Of a stretch of DNA of 52,516 nucleotides, positions 2,591 to 12,361 are shown piece after piece. The stretch comes from Nitrospirota bacterium (GTDB lineage: Bacteria; Nitrospirota; Thermodesulfovibrionia; Thermodesulfovibrionales; SM23-35), in assembly GCA_013388435.1 (NCBI GenBank), contig JACAFE010000052.1:1-52516 (forward strand). Direction: 5' to 3'. The position numbers and the translations under genes were made by a program. The notes beneath the pieces were generated by a model. That model saw only the letters and a program-made list of their open reading frames with translations. It did no database searches and was not told where the DNA came from. Position 1 is the stretch's first letter, and each line of letters begins with the position of its first letter.

Positions 2591-3844
2591 ATGCTCATAG
2601 TAAAATTTTATTTAATTATTATATCTTGCCTTTATATTTTAAAAGAAGGTTTTCAATATCTGCTAAGGTATCTTAATCTCCGACACATGAAAAGCTTCGG
2701 GAATAATGTACCTCCAGAATTTGAAGGATATATTAATAGAGATTTTCTTAAAAAAGTTCAGGATTATGAGAGAGAAAAAACGAAAATTGATATAATATCA
2801 TCACTTTCAGGAAACATTGCTACAATTATTTTTATCTTCCTTGGATTATTGGATTATTACAATAACTGGATAAATTCTCTAAATTTATCTTTTATAGTTT
2901 CAGGGCTTATATTTTTTTTACTATTGAGTTATGCCAGCACAATAATTTCTATTCCTTTCAGCCTTTATATTAATTTTAAAATTGAAAACAAGTACGGATT
3001 TAATACAATGACATTTAAATTATGGATTCAGGATTTTATGAAATCTGTTTTACTTTCAACAATTCTGAATGGAATAGTTATTTCTATTGCTTTTTGGATA
3101 ATACAAGGAAACCCTGAATACTGGTGGCTCTGGTTATGGTTATTCTTTATGACTTTCAGCATATTTATTATGTATATTGCTCCTTATGTGATAGAACCGT
3201 TATTCAACAAATTCACACCAATAGAAAATCCAGTTCTCGAAAACAGGATTCAGGAAGTAATGGAAAAAATCAAAATAAAAGTAACCAGGGTTTTCAAGAT
3301 GGATGCTTCAAAAAGGAGCAAACATACAAATGCTTATTTTTCAGGTATCGGAAAAGTTAAGAGAATTATTTTATATGATACATTGCTTGAAAGCATGTCT
3401 GATGATGAAATAATTGCGGTTTTGGCTCATGAAGCAGGTCACTGGAAAAAAAGACATGTGCTAAAAATGGTAATTGCTGCGGAAGTCCTATCTTTCATAG
3501 GGCTTTATATTTCTTTCAGAATACTTCAAACAGATATGCTCACTCAACTATTTATGATCAAACAAAATACTCTTTTTGCCAAGATAATCCTTTTAGGGTT
3601 TATCGGTGGAATAATATCTTTTCCTTTTACTCCATTTGCAAGTTATATCTCGAGAAGATTCGAAAATCAGGCTGATGAATTTGCTTTGAAACTATTCAAT
3701 AATAAAGAAGCAATGATAAGTACACTCATCAAACTTTCCAAGGATAACCTTTCAAATCTTTATCCACATCCGTTATATGTAGCATTCTACTATAGTCATC
3801 CTCCTGTTATTGATAGAATTAATAAAATCAAGAAATACCTTTAG
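2591..3844 (+). CDS. Ste24-type M48 family membrane metalloprotease
   Basis: This 417-residue integral membrane zinc protease resembles the CAAX prenyl protease 1 (Ste24) group of peptidase family M48. The zinc motif LAHEAGHWK gives H280, E281 and H284, and the ENQADEFA motif supplies the third ligand E358 and D362. Several hydrophobic segments flank these motifs (about residues 1-20, 70-90, 98-120, 150-200, 290-350), matching the multi-pass Ste24 layout. Bacterial homologues are thought to act in membrane protein quality control, since prenylation is not expected here. The ATG has only a distant AGGA upstream. The gene stands alone and converges on the operon at 3906-11298. Confidence 0.88.
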   Translation: MLIVKFYLIIISCLYILKEGFQYLLRYLNLRHMKSFGNNVPPEFEGYINRDFLKKVQDYEREKTKIDIISSLSGNIATIIFIFLGLLDYYNNWINSLNLSFIVSGLIFFLLLSYASTIISIPFSLYINFKIENKYGFNTMTFKLWIQDFMKSVLLSTILNGIVISIAFWIIQGNPEYWWLWLWLFFMTFSIFIMYIAPYVIEPLFNKFTPIENPVLENRIQEVMEKIKIKVTRVFKMDASKRSKHTNAYFSGIGKVKRIILYDTLLESMSDDEIIAVLAHEAGHWKKRHVLKMVIAAEVLSFIGLYISFRILQTDMLTQLFMIKQNTLFAKIILLGFIGGIISFPFTPFASYISRRFENQADEFALKLFNNKEAMISTLIKLSKDNLSNLYPHPLYVAFYYSHPPVIDRINKIKKYL

Positions 3845-3905: not shown

Positions 3906-4409
3906 TTAGAATCTATAAATATTATTAAAAATAGAATATTTATTGGATAATGATATTTTAAATAATTTTGCTTTCAATAAGCTAAAAATAGCGATTAAGA
4001 AATTTAATTTTTTCCATACCGGTGATTCAAGATTTATTGATTTTAAACCTTTTCTTTTTGAATGTTTTTCTATTCTTATAGCTTTACCGAGAATCATGTC
4101 TTCCCTTACGGGATTGTCTATTGAAATAATACGGTCACCTTTGGTGATGAAAGTTATTCTTTCCTGATTATTTTTCTTTATCGAGACAATACGATGAAGT
4201 ACAGAAAATCCATTATCATCTTTAAAAAGTATTAGATCACCAATATTAATTTCTTTAAAATGCACTTTTCGAACAATTACTATCTCACCACTTTTTAGAA
4301 ATGGCGTCATACTTCCCCCTGTAACCTTAACTCGAAGGTCAATGTCTTTACTCAGCAAATCTTTAAATAATGTTGCATACTCTATGTTCTTAATATTCTC
4401 GGTTTTCAC
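3906..4409 (-). CDS. S26 signal-peptidase-like protein (SipW/SEC11 type)
   Basis: This 167-residue protein has a signal peptidase I-like catalytic core. The GGSMTP motif gives the nucleophile S33. FSVLHRIV gives H72 and the following TKGDRI...DNPV block matches the Ser-His (SEC11/SipW, S26B) type rather than the Ser-Lys type. There is no clear N-terminal membrane anchor, and a hydrophobic stretch near residues 130-150 may serve instead. The start is GTG, overlapping the TAG stop of the kinase gene by one base, with AGGA upstream. It is the last gene of the six-gene operon. A role in cleaving the leader or an exported product of this operon is inferred, not shown. Confidence 0.75.
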   Translation of the reverse strand: MKTENIKNIEYATLFKDLLSKDIDLRVKVTGGSMTPFLKSGEIVIVRKVHFKEINIGDLILFKDDNGFSVLHRIVSIKKNNQERITFITKGDRIISIDNPVREDMILGKAIRIEKHSKRKGLKSINLESPVWKKLNFLIAIFSLLKAKLFKISLSNKYSIFNNIYRF

Positions 4410-5308
4410 TATGTTTTCCTGTAGATAAAATCATAAAGAAAATCGGATATATTTTTATCTGCTTTGAAATAAAGATTATATGCGGGTGTTATGGAAGTTA
4501 ATTCTTCGCAGAAATGGAGTAATTTTGACATTGAGTCTTTTTCGTACCATGGAATAGAAGTAACAGGCAATATTTTTTCAAATGCCTTTTGTGAAGATAT
4601 TTCTTCAATCCTGTTTTCATTTCCATGATAAATAAAAAAAATACCTGATAATCTGGAGCTGTTATTAACAGCAATTCCTTCATCGCCAGGCCATTGTGTT
4701 CCAAATGCCTGTATATTTCCGGAAATCTTTCTTAAAATAATTCGGTCATCACTGAGAAATAAAAACCTATTGTTTTTTGAACAAAGTCTTGTTATTGTGC
4801 TTTTGCCAGCGCCGGAACGTCCGGGGAAAACAAAACATTCCCCGTTAATGACAGTACCTGCAGAATGAATAATAGCGCCTTCTCTTAAACTAAGATAGTG
4901 CATTAATAAAATTTGGTCAAAAGGATAATGTACAGGATTAAAGATTGATTGAGTGCCATCTTTTAATTCAAGCATAAAGTCACTGCAAAATATTGTTGCA
5001 TTGCTGAATTCATTATTTATTTCTGCTAAAAGGTACGGTTTATCAAACACGGGCGGTTGAAAAATCATATAATATTTTTGTTCATAAAAATATAATGACC
5101 ATGACTCACTATTATCAAAGAGTTTTTTTGCTTCATTAATAACAGGTATTGGCGAGTTTTTAACCTTAATGAAAATATCACATGGATTTTTATAATTGTA
5201 TAAAATAAATGGTATATAAGCAGGGTCTGATTGTAGTGTTATAGGAAGTCCCTCAGACTCAATACAGATATTTAACCCAGCAGTGTTAAGGCAAAAAGAG
5301 TTTAACAT
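4409..5308 (-). CDS. HPr kinase-like (HprK-type) P-loop kinase
   Basis: The 299-residue protein carries a Walker A motif GRSGAGKS at residues 163-170 followed by an LSDDR element near 186-189, the arrangement of the HprK/PEP carboxykinase-like kinase fold. The N-terminal 150 residues look unlike the HPr kinase N-domain and are typical of the shorter HprK-like proteins found in peptide-modification clusters. Known relatives in lasso peptide clusters phosphorylate the hydroxyl of the C-terminal Ser of the precursor. The neighbouring precursor here also ends in Ser, so it is the obvious candidate substrate, by inference. The ATG follows the precursor stop by 14 bases and lacks a clear Shine-Dalgarno. 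Confidence 0.75.
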   Translation of the reverse strand: MLNSFCLNTAGLNICIESEGLPITLQSDPAYIPFILYNYKNPCDIFIKVKNSPIPVINEAKKLFDNSESWSLYFYEQKYYMIFQPPVFDKPYLLAEINNEFSNATIFCSDFMLELKDGTQSIFNPVHYPFDQILLMHYLSLREGAIIHSAGTVINGECFVFPGRSGAGKSTITRLCSKNNRFLFLSDDRIILRKISGNIQAFGTQWPGDEGIAVNNSSRLSGIFFIYHGNENRIEEISSQKAFEKILPVTSIPWYEKDSMSKLLHFCEELTSITPAYNLYFKADKNISDFLYDFIYRKT

Positions 5309-5322
5309 TAATATTTAAAACA

Positions 5323-5499
5323 TTAAGAACCTTTGCCAGCACAATGGCGAATCATGCAAGGCGGAGTAGCTGATTTCGGCGCTGTTCCTGTGCTTAAAGA
5401 TTTACATCCAACAGCCAGTATCTCTTCTGCAACGAGTTCTATTTGTCTGAGCATAGGTTTTTCATAATGCTGTTTTTGTTGTTTTTCGAGTGATTTCAT
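5323..5499 (-). CDS. Putative RiPP precursor peptide (radical SAM-modified)
   Basis: This short gene encodes 58 residues from the ATG at 5499, chosen because GGAGG lies five bases upstream. An ATG at 5511 would add four residues. The leader half contains YEKPML, which fits the YxxPxL motif bound by PqqD-like recognition elements in lasso systems, then an acidic AEEILAVG segment. The candidate core starts near GCKS and has three Cys (residues 32, 48 and 53 from this start), several Ser/Thr, and a PPCMIRHCAGKGS tail ending in Ser. The start lies inside the 3' end of the radical SAM gene. Placement among PqqD-like, SPASM radical SAM, HprK-like and S26 genes makes the RiPP assignment likely. The final structure is unknown. 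Confidence 0.75.
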   Translation of the reverse strand: MKSLEKQQKQHYEKPMLRQIELVAEEILAVGCKSLSTGTAPKSATPPCMIRHCAGKGS

Positions 5500-6580
5500 T
5501 ATAACCTCCATTGTTATTGGTAATTAATCTATATCTTTCTCTGCCCATTGTACATAGGTATTCTGATCGGATATACTCTGAGCCATTTTCCAGAAGAAAA
5601 AAAGCCGGGCAAAAACCGCACAATGACCTTTTTTCACATGTATTACATTCATATCCTTCAGGCGCTTTTTTTTCAAGTATTTTTGAAATATGTTCATGCC
5701 AGCCAATCTTAAATGATGCATTATTTATATTATAACTCAAATTATCAGTCATCAGACATGGTTTGAGATTTCCAGATGGATCAATATGAAAATTAGTATG
5801 TCCCGCACTGCATATATAAAGCGAGTCAACAACAGGAAAATTTCTTGTCTGCTCAAAATAGTCTCTATATTTTTTAAACATAGATTGTTCTGAAAACTCT
5901 TTGCTAATGGCAAATTCAGGCGAAACCCTGAGTTTTAAAGGAGTTTTATCTCCATTGAATCTCGGAAAAATAGCAGCGTCAAACCTGAAAGGCACTCTGA
6001 AATCTCTTGCGATGTTTTTTATTGCTTCAAATTCATGGCTATTTTCTGTCATGAGAATTGTTTTAATTTTAACTGGAATATTGCAGCCCAGTAAAATTTC
6101 TATGCCTCTCAGGCATTTTTTAAGAGAGCCTTTTATATCTGTTATCCTATCAGATGTTTCAGATGTTGCGCCATATATTGAGATTTCAACTGTTTGTGGT
6201 GGGAATTCAGAAAATAAATTACCAGTTTCCTCTGTGATTAGAGTCCCGTTTGTAAAGACTGTAAGAAGAATCCCGTTCATCTTAGCATGTTTATAAATGG
6301 TGCTGAAATCCTTTCTAAGCAAAGGTTCTCCACCGCTGATAAGAAGAAAAAGGCAACCAGCATCTGTTATTTCATCAATTATTGAAAGCCATCTTTCTGT
6401 GCTCAGTTCTTTTTGCTTATTCTTAGTTTGAGAGCTATAATAACAATGAATGCATTTTAGATTACATCTTGAAGTTATATCTATGCTTCCTGATAAAGGT
6501 ATTCTTTCCTGATATGCTTTATTGCTGAAATTTAATAGATATTCAACATTACTTAATTGTGAAGTTTCCTGACAATTCAT
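5462..6580 (-). CDS. Radical SAM/SPASM peptide-modifying enzyme
   Basis: This 372-residue protein has the radical SAM cluster motif CNLKCIHC (C39, C43, C46), a GGEPL motif near residue 84, and a C-terminal SPASM region. The SPASM region holds seven cysteines (C257, C275, C312, C315, C321, C324, C343), enough for auxiliary [4Fe-4S] clusters. SPASM enzymes next to PqqD-like proteins usually install thioether or C-C crosslinks in ribosomal peptides. It follows the PqqD-like gene with one base between stop and start. Its last 38 bases overlap the precursor gene in another frame. The substrate is most likely that precursor, by position. Confidence 0.88.
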   Translation of the reverse strand: MNCQETSQLSNVEYLLNFSNKAYQERIPLSGSIDITSRCNLKCIHCYYSSQTKNKQKELSTERWLSIIDEITDAGCLFLLISGGEPLLRKDFSTIYKHAKMNGILLTVFTNGTLITEETGNLFSEFPPQTVEISIYGATSETSDRITDIKGSLKKCLRGIEILLGCNIPVKIKTILMTENSHEFEAIKNIARDFRVPFRFDAAIFPRFNGDKTPLKLRVSPEFAISKEFSEQSMFKKYRDYFEQTRNFPVVDSLYICSAGHTNFHIDPSGNLKPCLMTDNLSYNINNASFKIGWHEHISKILEKKAPEGYECNTCEKRSLCGFCPAFFLLENGSEYIRSEYLCTMGRERYRLITNNNGGYNEITRKTTKTAL

Positions 6581-6581
6581 T

Positions 6582-6869
6582 TTAGCCTTTATCTGTAATA
6601 AGATTTTCTTTTAGCAACTCTGAAATCAATTCCTGTATGTCGTTTTCAGCCTGAGGCCGCTCAACATCAAAACAATTCATTACATCATTCAATATATCAG
6701 AAAGATTTCTTTCTCCATCCAGTCTCTGCCAGATAAAATTCGCAACATTATTTAGAGTAAAAATTTTCTGCATATCTGCCAATTTACCTTTAATAGGAAC
6801 AAGTATTGTCTCACCGGCAACAAAACGTGAAACTATGTTTTCAGCTTTTTTAAATTTTGTATTCCACAT
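6582..6869 (-). CDS. PqqD-family peptide recognition/chaperone protein
   Basis: The 95-residue protein fits the PqqD family. It has an N-terminal beta segment with ILVPIKGKLADM, then FTLNNVANFIWQRLDG and a helical tail, matching the usual size and layout. Family members bind the leader peptide and present the core to the radical SAM enzyme. The YxxPxL element of the downstream precursor is the likely ligand. The gene begins four bases after the giant protease gene and is followed at once by the radical SAM gene, so the three are probably co-transcribed. Confidence 0.85.
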   Translation of the reverse strand: MWNTKFKKAENIVSRFVAGETILVPIKGKLADMQKIFTLNNVANFIWQRLDGERNLSDILNDVMNCFDVERPQAENDIQELISELLKENLITDKG

Positions 6870-6873
6870 ATTT

Positions 6874-9800
6874 TTATTTTAATTGAAGCGCTGGATCTCC
6901 TAATATGTTATAAATATCAAGAATATACCCTGAGACTCCATCATCTTTGCTTTTATTCAATGCATGTAAAACTATCTCTCCAAGAGTTTGTCCCTGTTTT
7001 TCAAAATAAGCTTGATAAAAAGATTTGCCTAAATCAAGAGCCTGTGAATTTAATGACATGCCTGTTGGCGAAAAGACAGCAGAGACTCCACCATTTTGTT
7101 TTAATAGCATTCCAACACCAAGAGAATCAAATCCTGCAATTGAATAATTGCCCAGAACGCATGTCAAAGCTGTAATAACAGGAAGCTTTTCATAATTATT
7201 CAGAGAACTAATATCATCTAAAGTCAGGATTCCTTCCTGTGCAAGTCTATCCATTGAAGCATGCCCGAGATAATTGAGAAGAACTGCACCATTGTTGATG
7301 CCTGACAACAACATCTGTTTTGTATCTTCTGCTGAATTCTCTGAAAGATAAATCTTTTGTATTGAATAGGTCTGAGGAATTATACTTGCAAGAGCATTAC
7401 TATCTGCTGTAAAATCCCCACCTATATCTGGATTATCTGCAAGAAGTATAACAGTGTTTTTCCAGTTATTACCTGATGAATTTTCATAAGATATTATTTT
7501 GTTTACAAGAGCCTGAAATTCTTCAGATGTCCCAGCTGGCAATCTTCCGATAGCTATTTCTGGTATATGATCATCATTAACATCAGCAAAATAATTATCC
7601 GATGGGAAAAGTCCGTCAGGGCTTCCTATCATAATAGGAGGTATAAGATTGCCACCATAACCCTGATAATTTTTATAATCGTCATTGCCCTCTCCTGCAA
7701 GAACTATATAGTCAGGATATTTTGCCCAATTATTATAAGCATAAATGAGGAAGTTCCTTATAGCATCAGGAGAATAATTGCCATAATTGAACTCATCCAT
7801 AATATCATCCTGTAGAACAACCATGGTTTTTAAGCCTTTGCCCTGTCTATATGAAGCAAGCTGTTCTGCAACAGATTGAAGATGAGGAACAGTGATTATA
7901 AGATAATCAGCAGAATTTGAGGTGTTTTTTAAGTTTGAAGGGGTATCTATATTTATTAAATTTGGTTTTTTGATGGCAGAGGAAGTAAGAGCTAAATAAG
8001 TATTTTCACCTGAGCTGCCTGAGAAACTAACATTAAAATTAGGACCATTTTTAGTGATGGTAAAGGAGCTTATTTGTTTTGGCTTAAGATGGTCGCTGAT
8101 GTCAAAAACCTTTATATCGCCTGTTGTAAATCCTTCAATAGTTATAGTTGGTTGGTTATTTCCTTTTACGATTCTTTGATTATTGTAAGCTTTGTAATAG
8201 CTTTGATAATTAATATTAAAGGAATTAATGTAAAAAATACTATATGGAACATCTTTATCTAAAATTCCTCTAACCTCAACAGTATTTTCTCCATCATGTA
8301 AAATAGAAGCATTGAAATCAAGTTTAAGCTGATAGGGAGTTAATCCATTCCATTTTGCTTCACCGACTTCTATACCATTTATGCTTATAATTGCATGATG
8401 AGACGTGTTAGTTCCGCCATGCATATTTACTGAAAATTTTACAGTACCTGTGTTAGAAGGTGAATACAAATTAAATGAGATGGATTTAGTTCCTTCTTTA
8501 TCATCACCTGAAACTATAAAATCCCAGAACCAGAAATCAGCATATGGATTATTGAAAAGAGCTTCCGCTGGAATTTTGTTTTCTTCAATAATATAATTTT
8601 CTGTGAAAGTCTGGCCTTGTGTTGTAGTAAAAGGACCTTTGTTTTTTAAGGTATTCATAATTGTTCCGGAACTATACTCAAGCCAATAAATATTTTCAGT
8701 AGAATAAATATTAGAGTTAGCTTCACCGAAAAAGTATATGCCAGAATTTTTTGGAGCAGGTGCATATGCAATGTCTCTGCCAGTGTTAGTAAGTTTAAGC
8801 ATTTTCTTCTTTATGTATGAAGAAATCTTTTGAGTAGTTGTGCCAAATAAAGGAGCTATTTCAGAGTTAGAAATATAATAAAGACCAGTTTCATTTACAC
8901 TAATCTTAATCTTTGAACTCAATGAAGCTTGTTCAGTTACAGAAGAAGTTGCTGTTTTCTCTTTTTCAATTGCTTCGAGCCGAGCTTTTTTAAGCTTGCT
9001 CGACAGATGGGGTATTTTTAAATATGAACCAGAAATTTTATCAGGATACACTTGCTCGGGTATAACAGTAAAAGGACCATTAATCCTTTTATTCCCTCTT
9101 TGTTCTATTTCTTCAAGTATATATGCATATGTTTTACCTGGTAAGGCAGTTGAATCAATATAAATATAGGTTCCGCCTTGTGGAGAAGAAATTAGCCCTG
9201 GAAGTAATCTGTCATTTAATTTAACATAATTTACTGAAGTAGCATCTTTTCTATAAATATAAAAACCTGCTGTTCCAATTTCAGATGCAGTATCCCATTT
9301 TAATAAGACTTTGCCATCTTTGACAAAGGCGTTAAAAGATGATATTGATGCGAGAGTTGGAAGTGAAGAAGAGCCTTCAGTAACAGCAAGCTCGCAAAGC
9401 GGTCCAAATGTATATGTTGCTCTTGCTTGTGTTGTATTGCCAGTTTCATCAATATATATAGCAATTGTTCCGTTCGATGCAGGTGTCCCTGTAACAGGCA
9501 ATCTCTGACCTGAAAGAGTTGGTGTTACATTTACTTCATAAACTAAATCAGCAGATGAACCAGCAGGGATTGTGCCGGGATTCCAGACAATATTTCCTGT
9601 TCCGCCAATAGATGGTTGGGATGTGATAGAACCCTGACTTACTACTGCATTACCTGCATAGACAACACCTGATCCCGGGATATTTGCTCTTATCATATTG
9701 CCTGTACCAGAAAATGTTATTGAGAAAGCTGAAGGATTAAAAAATGTTATTTGAACTTTTAGTCTTGATGTGCTGCCAACAGCAGGTGGATTAGGTCCAG

Positions 9801-11298
9801 ATACAAGGCTCAATGTCTGTGTTAATATTGGTTTTGATGGAGCTCCGCCGCTGTCTGTTGGAAAGTAAATCCTGAAAGTATTAGCCTGAGGCTGAGAAGT
9901 TGGAGGAGGGTTTGAAGAAGAATAATTACCTGTATAATATGTAATGTAATTACCAGTGTTTAATGCATAACGTTCCACTGTTATATCTGATCTCCATATA
10001 CCATAATCTGCTGACCATATATCAGTTGTCCAAGCAGTTATATTAAGGCTTTGCCATGTATTGTTTCTTGAAACAGTTGATGGAGAGGTTGAAAAAGTCC
10101 CTGTCCTGCTCGTATATGAGATTGAACCAAAACTATCGCCATCAAAGTCATTAGACTTAAAGGAACAACCACTTGTAATATAAGGATATATTGTATAAGA
10201 TCTACTCGAAGTATCTGGATGATTTCCCATTTCAACAAATGAATGCGCATAAATATTTAATTCAGTTCCGCCTGAAGAAGTATCCCCATCATGTGCCCTG
10301 ATTGCAAAGCCGTTAATATCATCATTTGTATTCATGTCAACCCTTAATTCCCAATGACCTGGGGTCAAAGGACCTCCATCATTTATCTCAACATTGTCAA
10401 AATAAGAATATTCTCTTCTCTCAATAGCACGGTTAACGGCGAATCTTATACGTGTATTGGAAGAAATATATGAAGTTATATCGTATGTAAATGTTGTTGC
10501 AGTATAATCATTACAAAACTGCTGAAGTTGTGTCCATGTTATCCCACCATTATTTGAGACAAATACGCCTACACAATCATCATTTTCCAGGTTTCCTGAA
10601 GTTCTGTAAGTAAAGGTGAGATAAGCAGAGGCAAGATTTAATCCTGTAGGAGAAAGATTTACTTCTCTTTCAATCCTGTTCTGGGTATTTCCTGTGATCT
10701 GGAGTGCTCCTCCATTTATTTGAATATTTCCAGCTGAAGGTCCAGCTCCGCCAGGGTCATTTTCTATCCATGAACCTGACCAGTTTTGGTTCCCATCATT
10801 GTTACTCCAGGAAGCAGTACTAAAGTTATCACGAACATTTTTCCCAGTCCCATTATAAAAATTAAGCCATGCATTATTAGCTCCAGCAGGTAGTGTTGAG
10901 TTACCTGTTGTAAAACGAACTGGTCTCTGGTTCCCCGAAGGATCAATAAGTGTATAGGTTGCCGATGTGTCCCAGCTACCACCCCTTTGCCTATCACGAG
11001 GTCCATTTGCTCCTTCATCAGCACCTCCAATATCAGCATCAAAAATATCAATTACAAGACGCGAAAGACCCGAGGGTACTTCAATAAAATAGGAATAATA
11101 TGTATTCAAACCGCCCGATGATGCACTCACATAGTCGCCACTTGATGTAGGTGAAGATGCTCCCATTGGCATTTGCAATTGATTTTCTGGAATTGCAGAA
11201 GCAAAAACGGAGAATGGTGTTAAAAATATAGTAAGTAAAAAAATAATAGCAGGCATCAAATAAATTTGATTAATCTTTTGAATTTTTTTTAAAAACAT
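6874..11298 (-). CDS. Large secreted C25 (gingipain-like) cysteine protease
   Basis: From the ATG at 11298, which has AGGGGGA just upstream, this is a 1474-residue exported protein. It has a Sec signal peptide of about 35 residues ending FSVFASA. Regions in order: a beta-rich N-terminal part (to ~450); a DUF11/Ig-like segment with VWNPGTIPAGSSADL (~520-620); a fibronectin-like VLLKWDTASEIGTAGFYIYR segment (~650-750); further beta domains; and a C-terminal C25 peptidase domain (~1130-1474) ending ILGDPALQLK. The catalytic pair is H1346 (LGHAS) and C1380 (LTCVLG), close to the gingipain spacing. No type IX sorting domain or LPXTG is visible. It heads the radical SAM peptide operon. Whether it matures or destroys the peptide, or is itself modified or activated by the system, is open. 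Confidence 0.85.
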   Translation of the reverse strand: MFLKKIQKINQIYLMPAIIFLLTIFLTPFSVFASAIPENQLQMPMGASSPTSSGDYVSASSGGLNTYYSYFIEVPSGLSRLVIDIFDADIGGADEGANGPRDRQRGGSWDTSATYTLIDPSGNQRPVRFTTGNSTLPAGANNAWLNFYNGTGKNVRDNFSTASWSNNDGNQNWSGSWIENDPGGAGPSAGNIQINGGALQITGNTQNRIEREVNLSPTGLNLASAYLTFTYRTSGNLENDDCVGVFVSNNGGITWTQLQQFCNDYTATTFTYDITSYISSNTRIRFAVNRAIERREYSYFDNVEINDGGPLTPGHWELRVDMNTNDDINGFAIRAHDGDTSSGGTELNIYAHSFVEMGNHPDTSSRSYTIYPYITSGCSFKSNDFDGDSFGSISYTSRTGTFSTSPSTVSRNNTWQSLNITAWTTDIWSADYGIWRSDITVERYALNTGNYITYYTGNYSSSNPPPTSQPQANTFRIYFPTDSGGAPSKPILTQTLSLVSGPNPPAVGSTSRLKVQITFFNPSAFSITFSGTGNMIRANIPGSGVVYAGNAVVSQGSITSQPSIGGTGNIVWNPGTIPAGSSADLVYEVNVTPTLSGQRLPVTGTPASNGTIAIYIDETGNTTQARATYTFGPLCELAVTEGSSSLPTLASISSFNAFVKDGKVLLKWDTASEIGTAGFYIYRKDATSVNYVKLNDRLLPGLISSPQGGTYIYIDSTALPGKTYAYILEEIEQRGNKRINGPFTVIPEQVYPDKISGSYLKIPHLSSKLKKARLEAIEKEKTATSSVTEQASLSSKIKISVNETGLYYISNSEIAPLFGTTTQKISSYIKKKMLKLTNTGRDIAYAPAPKNSGIYFFGEANSNIYSTENIYWLEYSSGTIMNTLKNKGPFTTTQGQTFTENYIIEENKIPAEALFNNPYADFWFWDFIVSGDDKEGTKSISFNLYSPSNTGTVKFSVNMHGGTNTSHHAIISINGIEVGEAKWNGLTPYQLKLDFNASILHDGENTVEVRGILDKDVPYSIFYINSFNINYQSYYKAYNNQRIVKGNNQPTITIEGFTTGDIKVFDISDHLKPKQISSFTITKNGPNFNVSFSGSSGENTYLALTSSAIKKPNLINIDTPSNLKNTSNSADYLIITVPHLQSVAEQLASYRQGKGLKTMVVLQDDIMDEFNYGNYSPDAIRNFLIYAYNNWAKYPDYIVLAGEGNDDYKNYQGYGGNLIPPIMIGSPDGLFPSDNYFADVNDDHIPEIAIGRLPAGTSEEFQALVNKIISYENSSGNNWKNTVILLADNPDIGGDFTADSNALASIIPQTYSIQKIYLSENSAEDTKQMLLSGINNGAVLLNYLGHASMDRLAQEGILTLDDISSLNNYEKLPVITALTCVLGNYSIAGFDSLGVGMLLKQNGGVSAVFSPTGMSLNSQALDLGKSFYQAYFEKQGQTLGEIVLHALNKSKDDGVSGYILDIYNILGDPALQLK

Positions 11299-11467: not shown

Positions 11468-12361
11468 ATGAATATGACAAAAAAAATTATATTTATAGTA
11501 TTTATTTTATTCTACAGCGTAGTACTTTTAAATTCGGAAAAATTTTTATATGCAGAAACAAATAATTTTCTCTGGAAAGTAAGATCAAAAACAAGCACAG
11601 CTTATATTCTTGGTTCAATACATTTCATGAAAAAAGAACATTATCCTTTAAACAAAACGATAGAAGATGCTTTCAATAAATCTGAAGTGCTTGCAGTTGA
11701 AGCAAATGTTAATGATATAAGTAAGATTGATATACAGAAAGTGCTTGGTACATCATTTTACACGGGAGATGATTCTCTTGAAAAACATATTTCAGGTGAT
11801 ACTTTTAGATTACTTAAGACAAAGTTTGAAAGTCTTGGATTTCCATTATGGATAATTAACAAACAAAAGCCATGGTTTTTAGCTTTAACTCTTGTTTCGC
11901 TTGAATTAATGCAAAATGGCTATGACCCGCAATACGGACTGGATATGTATTTTCTTTCCAAGGCGAATAATAAAAAGATAAAAGAACTTGAAAGCATTGA
12001 TTATCAGATAAATTTATTATCTGAGTTTTCCGATATGGAACAGGAAGCTTTTTTGCTTTATTCAATAAAGAACTCAGAAAATCTTTCGAAAGATACAGAT
12101 GATATTATAAAAGCATGGAGAGAAGGAAATGCTTCAAAGCTTGAATCTATAATAATCAATTCTTTTAAGAATTATAATGGAATGACTTCTGTTTACAGAA
12201 AACTGGTTTCCGAAAGAAACGAAAAAATGGCATTAAGAATTGAAAAATACCTTGAATCCAATGAAACCCATTTTATTATTGTAGGAGCAGGTCATCTTGT
12301 TGGAAGAGGCGGAATAATTGAGCTATTAAAAAATAAGGGTTATATTGTGGAACAGATGTAG
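11468..12361 (+). CDS. TraB/GumN family exported protein
   Basis: This 297-residue protein has an N-terminal signal peptide (hydrophobic residues ~6-22, before FLYAET). It shows the TraB/GumN family landmarks: GSIH at residues 49-52 and the C-terminal FIIVGAGHLVGRGGI block. The family is related to Tiki-type metalloproteases, with the conserved His and Glu thought to bind metal, but bacterial functions are poorly defined. Two ATG codons lie close together (11468 and 11474). It is transcribed divergently from the C25 protease operon, with about 170 bases between the starts, and precedes the YacP-like gene by 26 bases. Confidence 0.82.
   Translation: MNMTKKIIFIVFILFYSVVLLNSEKFLYAETNNFLWKVRSKTSTAYILGSIHFMKKEHYPLNKTIEDAFNKSEVLAVEANVNDISKIDIQKVLGTSFYTGDDSLEKHISGDTFRLLKTKFESLGFPLWIINKQKPWFLALTLVSLELMQNGYDPQYGLDMYFLSKANNKKIKELESIDYQINLLSEFSDMEQEAFLLYSIKNSENLSKDTDDIIKAWREGNASKLESIIINSFKNYNGMTSVYRKLVSERNEKMALRIEKYLESNETHFIIVGAGHLVGRGGIIELLKNKGYIVEQM

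Follow-up and report, generated by a model that had tools for sequence, protein, structure and literature searches.

The stretch analysed here, called the window below, is the 52,516-nucleotide contig JACAFE010000052.1 (C80 in our numbering) of the Nitrospirota bacterium assembly GCA_013388435.1, a genome of 2.15 Mb that is 98% complete. Its minus strand carries a unit of six genes, encoding a C25-family protease, a PqqD-like protein, a radical S-adenosylmethionine (SAM) enzyme with a SPASM domain, a 58-residue peptide, an HprK-like kinase and an S26-family peptidase. A first-pass annotation had described these genes as tightly spaced, and all six are indeed present, separated by at most 14 bp or overlapping (4, 1, -38, 14 and -1 bp along the operon). 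By this arrangement the six genes would form a single transcription unit. The locus is very probably an operon for a ribosomally synthesised and post-translationally modified peptide (RiPP), as had been proposed: in other genomes, too, radical SAM homologues are found alongside short peptides of this kind and HprK-like and C25 genes.

The precursor peptide (MKSLEKQQKQHYEKPMLRQIELVAEEILAVGCKSLSTGTAPKSATPPCMIRHCAGKGS) is encoded at 5323-5499 on the minus strand. It had been noticed initially as a small Cys-containing peptide. The gene is real, but its most likely start is the ATG at 5499, which is preceded by the Shine-Dalgarno sequence GGAGG and gives 58 residues, rather than the start of the 62-residue open reading frame annotated at first. 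The frame is conserved in a family of 63 distinct members, as the earlier proposal required, with the leader consensus YEKPxLRxIELxAEEVLxxGCK. The first residue of the leader motif is Tyr in 51 of the 63 precursors and Trp in the other 12, so that the motif reads [Y/W]xxPx[L/V/I]; in the window it is YEKPML (5449-5466), the likely binding site of the RiPP recognition element (RRE). A Cys lies exactly 20 residues past the motif Tyr/Trp in 59/63 precursors, and is preceded by Gly, Ala, Ser or Thr in 57/63. This residue is Cys32 in the window (5404-5406), and the border between leader and core is probably located directly ahead of it. The core downstream of the conserved Cys is variable and mostly contains two Cys residues. 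Between the window precursor and that of a congener, nonsynonymous divergence (dN) is 0.11 and synonymous divergence (dS) 1.84, a dN/dS near 0.06 for a frame that partly overlaps the radical SAM gene. Judged by this ratio and by the family alignment, the precursor is a genuine gene family under purifying selection. A near-identical second copy of the precursor is found upstream of a giant C25 gene at locus L040 (19282-19458). The peptide has no match in the phage collection.

The main new result of our analysis is a signature at the C-terminus of the precursor alignment: a conserved terminal Ser, as in kinase-bearing lasso peptide clusters. Of the 63 precursors, 60 terminate in Ser and two in Thr. 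Among 39 cores that are <50% identical, 36 end in Ser, a residue that makes up 11% of the core elsewhere (P ~5e-31, assuming that the cores are independent, which holds roughly). Unrelated precursors at HprK-bearing loci also end in Ser or Thr, namely both peptides of L053, those of L055 and L195, and the second peptide of L056. The candidate peptides that have no adjacent kinase, at L193, L208 and the orphan L096, end in a residue other than Ser. The corresponding residue in the window is Ser58 (5326-5328), which we predict to be a phosphorylation site.

The kinase gene (4409-5308, minus strand) encodes 299 residues. Its similarity to HprK is weak by sequence, with a best E value of 2.7e-4. 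An AlphaFold2 model built with 18 homologues has a predicted local distance difference test score (pLDDT) of 93.8, and a Foldseek search of the PDB with this model returned PEPCK (1.9e-7) and HPr kinase/phosphatase (4.5e-5) as the best matches. Predicted fold and motif together place the protein firmly in the PEPCK/HPr kinase superfamily. His148, Gly163, Ser165, Gly168, Lys169, Thr171 and Asp187 are invariant across the homologues, five of them within the P-loop GRSGAGKST (4796-4822). In the lasso peptide kinase BsfK, the residues of the motif H148-G163-G166-G168-K169-S170-D186-D187 matter for the enzyme (PMC10368454), and they align to identical residue numbers in the window kinase. The HprK-type kinases PadeK, ThcoK and PsmK of lasso clusters phosphorylate a C-terminal Ser, which has been termed extremely conserved in lasso clusters with a homologous kinase (PMC9266682).

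The last gene of the operon (3906-4409, minus strand) encodes a 167-residue signal-peptidase-like enzyme of the archaeal/Sec11 type. The protein scores 66 bits against TIGR02228, the model of archaeal-type signal peptidase I (cut-off, 52 bits; E=2.5e-18), and matches SEC11C in the PDB at 3.9e-5. Ser33, His72 and Asp92 are invariant in an alignment of 40 rows. A closely comparable enzyme is known from the linear polyphosphorylated peptides (LPPs), described in May 2026 from the lppA-K-B-S-D-N cluster of Paenibacillus alginolyticus, in which the leader is removed by the SipW-like signal peptidase LppS (S29, H68, D93) with the help of the RRE (PMC13381572). The triad of the window enzyme is placed as in LppS, with a Ser-His spacing of 39 residues in both, and by this analogy the S26 protein is likely to be the leader peptidase. 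Two relatives are natural fusions of an S26-like protein to a GNAT acetyltransferase (L045, 6920-7918; L048, 7251-8288). Such a fusion would fit a leader peptidase, because leader cleavage would expose a new N-terminus for capping. At L047 (257-1390), an S26-like protein is possibly fused to a methyltransferase, on the strength of a weak match.

The two remaining genes of the peptide pathway encode a PqqD-like RRE of 95 residues (6582-6869; Pfam PqqD, 2.5e-17), which is the sole PqqD of the source genome, and a radical SAM/SPASM maturase of 372 residues (5462-6580; Pfam Radical_SAM, 8.7e-23), both on the minus strand. The CxxxCxxC motif of the maturase and five further Cys residues for auxiliary clusters are invariant over 72 rows. 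The radical SAM protein is found at E<=1e-30 in 23 of 101 related genomes, and the peptide profile has matches in 62 of 396 Nitrospirota genomes; a contig scan with the single radical SAM sequence had matched only the congeneric locus, L034. PqqD, radical SAM enzyme, peptide, HprK and S26 occur together repeatedly in Nitrospirota loci, mostly in the order of the window. The operon is therefore not a chance assembly, since its genes are found together again in many other genomes and purifying selection acts on the peptide frame.

Families within the phylum carry anonymous labels here, such as f1 and f29. In family f29 the cluster contains HprK, S26, between one and three peptides and as many as three radical SAM genes, against one in the window; at its loci L105-L120 many peptides end in DSGxRxS, and at one of them, L119, an ECF sigma factor gene adjoins the cluster. 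Polysaccharide export genes (Poly_export, Wzz-type, Wzy) lie beside the cluster at L037 (14290-17330) and L043 (407-5868). At L199 (genome G015), a PqqD of the family stands beside an M48 gene, with no radical SAM gene, kinase or peptide found nearby, and looks like the remnant of a decayed cluster. In the window the operon is bordered by an M48/CAAX-type protease gene (2591-3844) and a TraB/PrgY-family gene (11468-12361). PrgY relatives act on peptide pheromones. The same two neighbours are found at L035, L038, L039 and L045, including where C25 is absent. Their adjacency to the cluster is kept only in the window's own family, and we have set both genes aside as synteny; common ancestry of the region may be the cause of the co-occurrence.

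The C25 gene (6874-11298 or 11343, minus strand; ATG at 11298) encodes an exported gingipain/PorU-like protease of 1474 residues. A signal peptide is followed by a β-rich N-terminal part of ~830 residues, a PorU-like part and, at the extreme C-terminus, the catalytic domain (Pfam Peptidase_C25, E=1.9e-86). The predicted catalytic dyad lies within 7159-7263, with His at 7261-7263 and Cys at 7159-7161; the His (GH column) and Cys (TC column) are invariant or nearly so in 18 C25 proteins linked to such loci. The protein matches the PorU model at 1.4e-87 and PorU in the PDB (6za2) at E=5.7e-23. It resembles PorU and the gingipains in its catalytic domain and in its PorU-like upstream part, and differs from PorU in its score of 294 bits, under the cut-off of 420 bits, in having the domain at the extreme C-terminus, and in the adhesin-like N-terminal domains of its relatives. 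These N-terminal parts vary widely and include SdrD_B, DUF11, DUF7933, LTD and G8 surface-type domains. A model of the N-terminal part built from three sequences reached a pLDDT of 44.7, too poor for a fold search. Type IX sorting tails (TIGR04183) are absent from the source genome, in a search whose positive controls gave matches; a search of the same genome for SprA gave no match, with equally silent controls. We have dropped type IX secretion as a reading of C25, given the lack of sorting tails.

Does the protease belong to the pathway? It could be a secreted protein of unrelated function that is simply co-transcribed, with the RiPP pathway consisting of the other five genes; C25 is absent from many relatives that have these five, and the N-terminal parts are highly variable. 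We consider this unlikely in view of its distribution. A strong C25 match is found in 14 of the 101 related genomes, every one of which also belongs to the 23 that encode the radical SAM protein (hypergeometric 1.6e-11, kinship ignored), and in 13 of the 14 the gene lies inside the locus. Elsewhere in Nitrospirota, C25 is also present without such a cluster. In the radical SAM tree, C25 occurs in two clades, whose C25 proteins form separate groups. In the first clade it lies upstream of PqqD in 16 of 17 cases, the exception being L094, whose contig begins at PqqD. In the second it lies between HprK and S26 (L051, L054); L093 breaks off after HprK, and another contig of that genome, L152, opens within C25 and continues with S26. 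A third arrangement is seen in another family, at L155 (6669-13451), where the cluster has no radical SAM gene and comprises PqqD, a peptide with YEPPQV, HprK, C25 with its propeptide encoded by a gene apart, S26 and NTP_transf_5, the C25 gene lying between those of HprK and S26. Because C25 is joined to the kinase/signal-peptidase chassis in three arrangements, it is probably linked functionally to the RiPP pathway. The initial view of C25 as an operon member thus holds for the window, where the gene is tightly linked, but not for the many family members that do without it: from its phylogenetic distribution, C25 is a subclade feature and a tightly linked accessory of the family. As to its action, our simplest guess is extracellular processing and our boldest is surface attachment.

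Taken together, these features suggest the following pathway. The PqqD-like element would bind YEKPML of the precursor and hand the precursor to the radical SAM/SPASM enzyme, which would modify the Cys-containing core, most simply by cross-linking it through a thioether or a C-C bond. Ser58 would receive a phosphate from the HprK-like kinase, and the S26 enzyme would cut off the leader, probably around AVG/CK directly before Cys32. C25, exported by its signal peptide, would work outside the cytoplasm, either carrying out the last proteolytic processing step or partnering the peptide at the surface. We infer every catalytic step from the relatives named here; the genes, their conservation across genomes, the leader motif, the terminal Ser/Thr, the intact catalytic residues and the predicted HprK fold are direct observations. 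Phosphorylation of the terminal Ser by the kinase and leader removal by the S26 enzyme both seem likely by analogy, and the pathway as a whole, yielding a modified, kinase-tagged and exported peptide from an RRE/HprK/signal-peptidase chassis combined with radical SAM chemistry, is in our judgement the probable one.

Several points weigh against this interpretation. The HprK assignment is weak on sequence, and the genomes are related, so that our counts inflate independence. The kinase-less control peptides number only three, the first precursor candidate of L056 ends in Gly, and the precursor of L155 ends in Pro despite an HprK-like gene. Both LppK (PMC13381572) and BsfK (PMC10368454) target an internal residue, Ser3. 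An HprK-like enzyme alone thus does not dictate the C-terminus, given the Pro of L155 and the action of LppK and BsfK on Ser3. Finally, the place of C25 in the pathway is uncertain, as many relatives with the remaining five genes lack it.

Among the closest known systems are the LPPs and the paeninodin-like lasso peptides. The LPP core includes an RRE, an HprK and a signal peptidase, with an S26-type enzyme as the leader peptidase (PMC13381572), and the [Y/W]xxP motif is also present in the leaders of LPPs and lasso peptides (PMC13381572, PMC10368454). The window shares with the LPPs a discrete RRE, an HprK-like kinase, an archaeal-type signal-peptidase-like enzyme with Ser, His and Asp, and a [Y/W]xxP leader; with the paeninodin-like clusters (PadeK, ThcoK, PsmK) it shares the HprK-type kinase, the conserved C-terminal Ser, the RRE and the YxxP/WxxP leader. 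One could regard the operon as a plain LPP cluster of a new phylum, in which the radical SAM enzyme is a secondary tailoring addition. Some relatives lend colour to this: NTP_transf_5 occurs in the clusters of L050 and L119, an MsbA-like ABC transporter gene completes the LPP core set at L050, and L037 and L043 lie beside polysaccharide genes, LPPs being often found in capsule loci of Bacilli. We nevertheless think it improbable. The radical SAM gene, missing from hardly any complete cluster and occurring in up to three copies, behaves as a core gene, and the family has a Cys-containing core. The leader consensus differs from that of the LPPs, YxxPxVLxHQxIxFETxxS, and the conserved Ser is terminal here, whereas the LPP phosphosite is Ser3 (PMC13381572). 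Neither an NTP transferase nor an MsbA-like transporter was found among the operon genes or their immediate flanks, which agrees with the remark in the first-pass annotation that the operon has no ABC exporter. C25 in the window's subclade and a Nitrospirota rather than a Bacillota host are further differences.

As for lasso peptides, neither the macrolactam cyclase C nor the B2 cysteine leader peptidase turned up in the operon or next to it, the only genes searched, and the window operon has a radical SAM enzyme in place of cyclase and B2. The operon resembles the LPP and phosphorylated lasso pathways in recognition, phosphorylation and leader cleavage and is a member of neither, because the lasso enzymes are missing from the genes searched, the window cluster has neither an NTP transferase nor an ABC gene, and leader consensus and phosphosite are different. 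What is new, on our best reading, is that an RRE/HprK/signal-peptidase chassis relies on a radical SAM enzyme for its principal chemistry. The locus had been put forward as an unnamed RiPP class. This needs qualifying, as the RRE/HprK/signal-peptidase part is the LPP core; for that chassis as extended by C25 and a radical SAM maturase, we found no name or description in the open-access literature.

Two other kinds of system with radical SAM enzymes deserve mention. Sactipeptides and ranthipeptides carry a Cys thioether in the core, made by a radical SAM/SPASM enzyme; the window has SPASM-type Cys residues and a Cys-containing core, and a thioether of this kind is putative here. The SynChlorMet cassette (NCBIfam ScmC to ScmF) also joins a PqqD-like protein, two radical SAM/SPASM enzymes and an HprK-related protein; the PqqD of the window scores 39 bits with the ScmD model and the radical SAM enzyme 117 bits with ScmE, and the kinase of L119 matches ScmC at 6.5e-6. 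Membership of this cassette is very unlikely, since all Scm scores are far below the curated cut-offs of 100, 400 and 125 bits (ScmD 39/100, ScmE 117/400, ScmF 70/400), the window has a single radical SAM enzyme instead of two, and its kinase has no ScmC match at E 0.1. To our knowledge, S26 and C25 are outside the SynChlorMet definition. That the locus is no RiPP operon at all, its radical SAM protein serving haem or cofactor synthesis beside a spurious small reading frame, is hardly credible and we reject it: AhbD and NirJ2 are the top NCBIfam models, but at 131 and 126 bits they are far beneath cut-offs of 500, and the conserved peptide family occurs repeatedly beside PqqD, HprK and S26.

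A more speculative version, which we rate as distinctly doubtful, is a separate Nitrospirota RiPP class combining radical SAM cross-linking with phosphorylation of the C-terminal Ser, in one branch of which the peptide would be ligated to, or displayed on, a giant adhesin-like surface protein through the PorU-like C25 domain instead of being released by an ABC transporter. Whatever the fate of the peptide, the operon brings together two RiPP logics hitherto described separately, one being the peptide chemistry of radical SAM enzymes and the other the RRE/HprK/signal-peptidase chassis known from LPPs and phosphorylated lasso peptides. It offers a prediction at the level of residues, a phosphate on the last Ser, together with a defined leader motif, and the natural fusions of leader peptidase and GNAT suggest further tailoring. 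For the Nitrospirota, it points to a conserved, unstudied peptide, which in one branch is paired with a C25 protease that is secreted from a cell whose genome has no type IX sorting tails.

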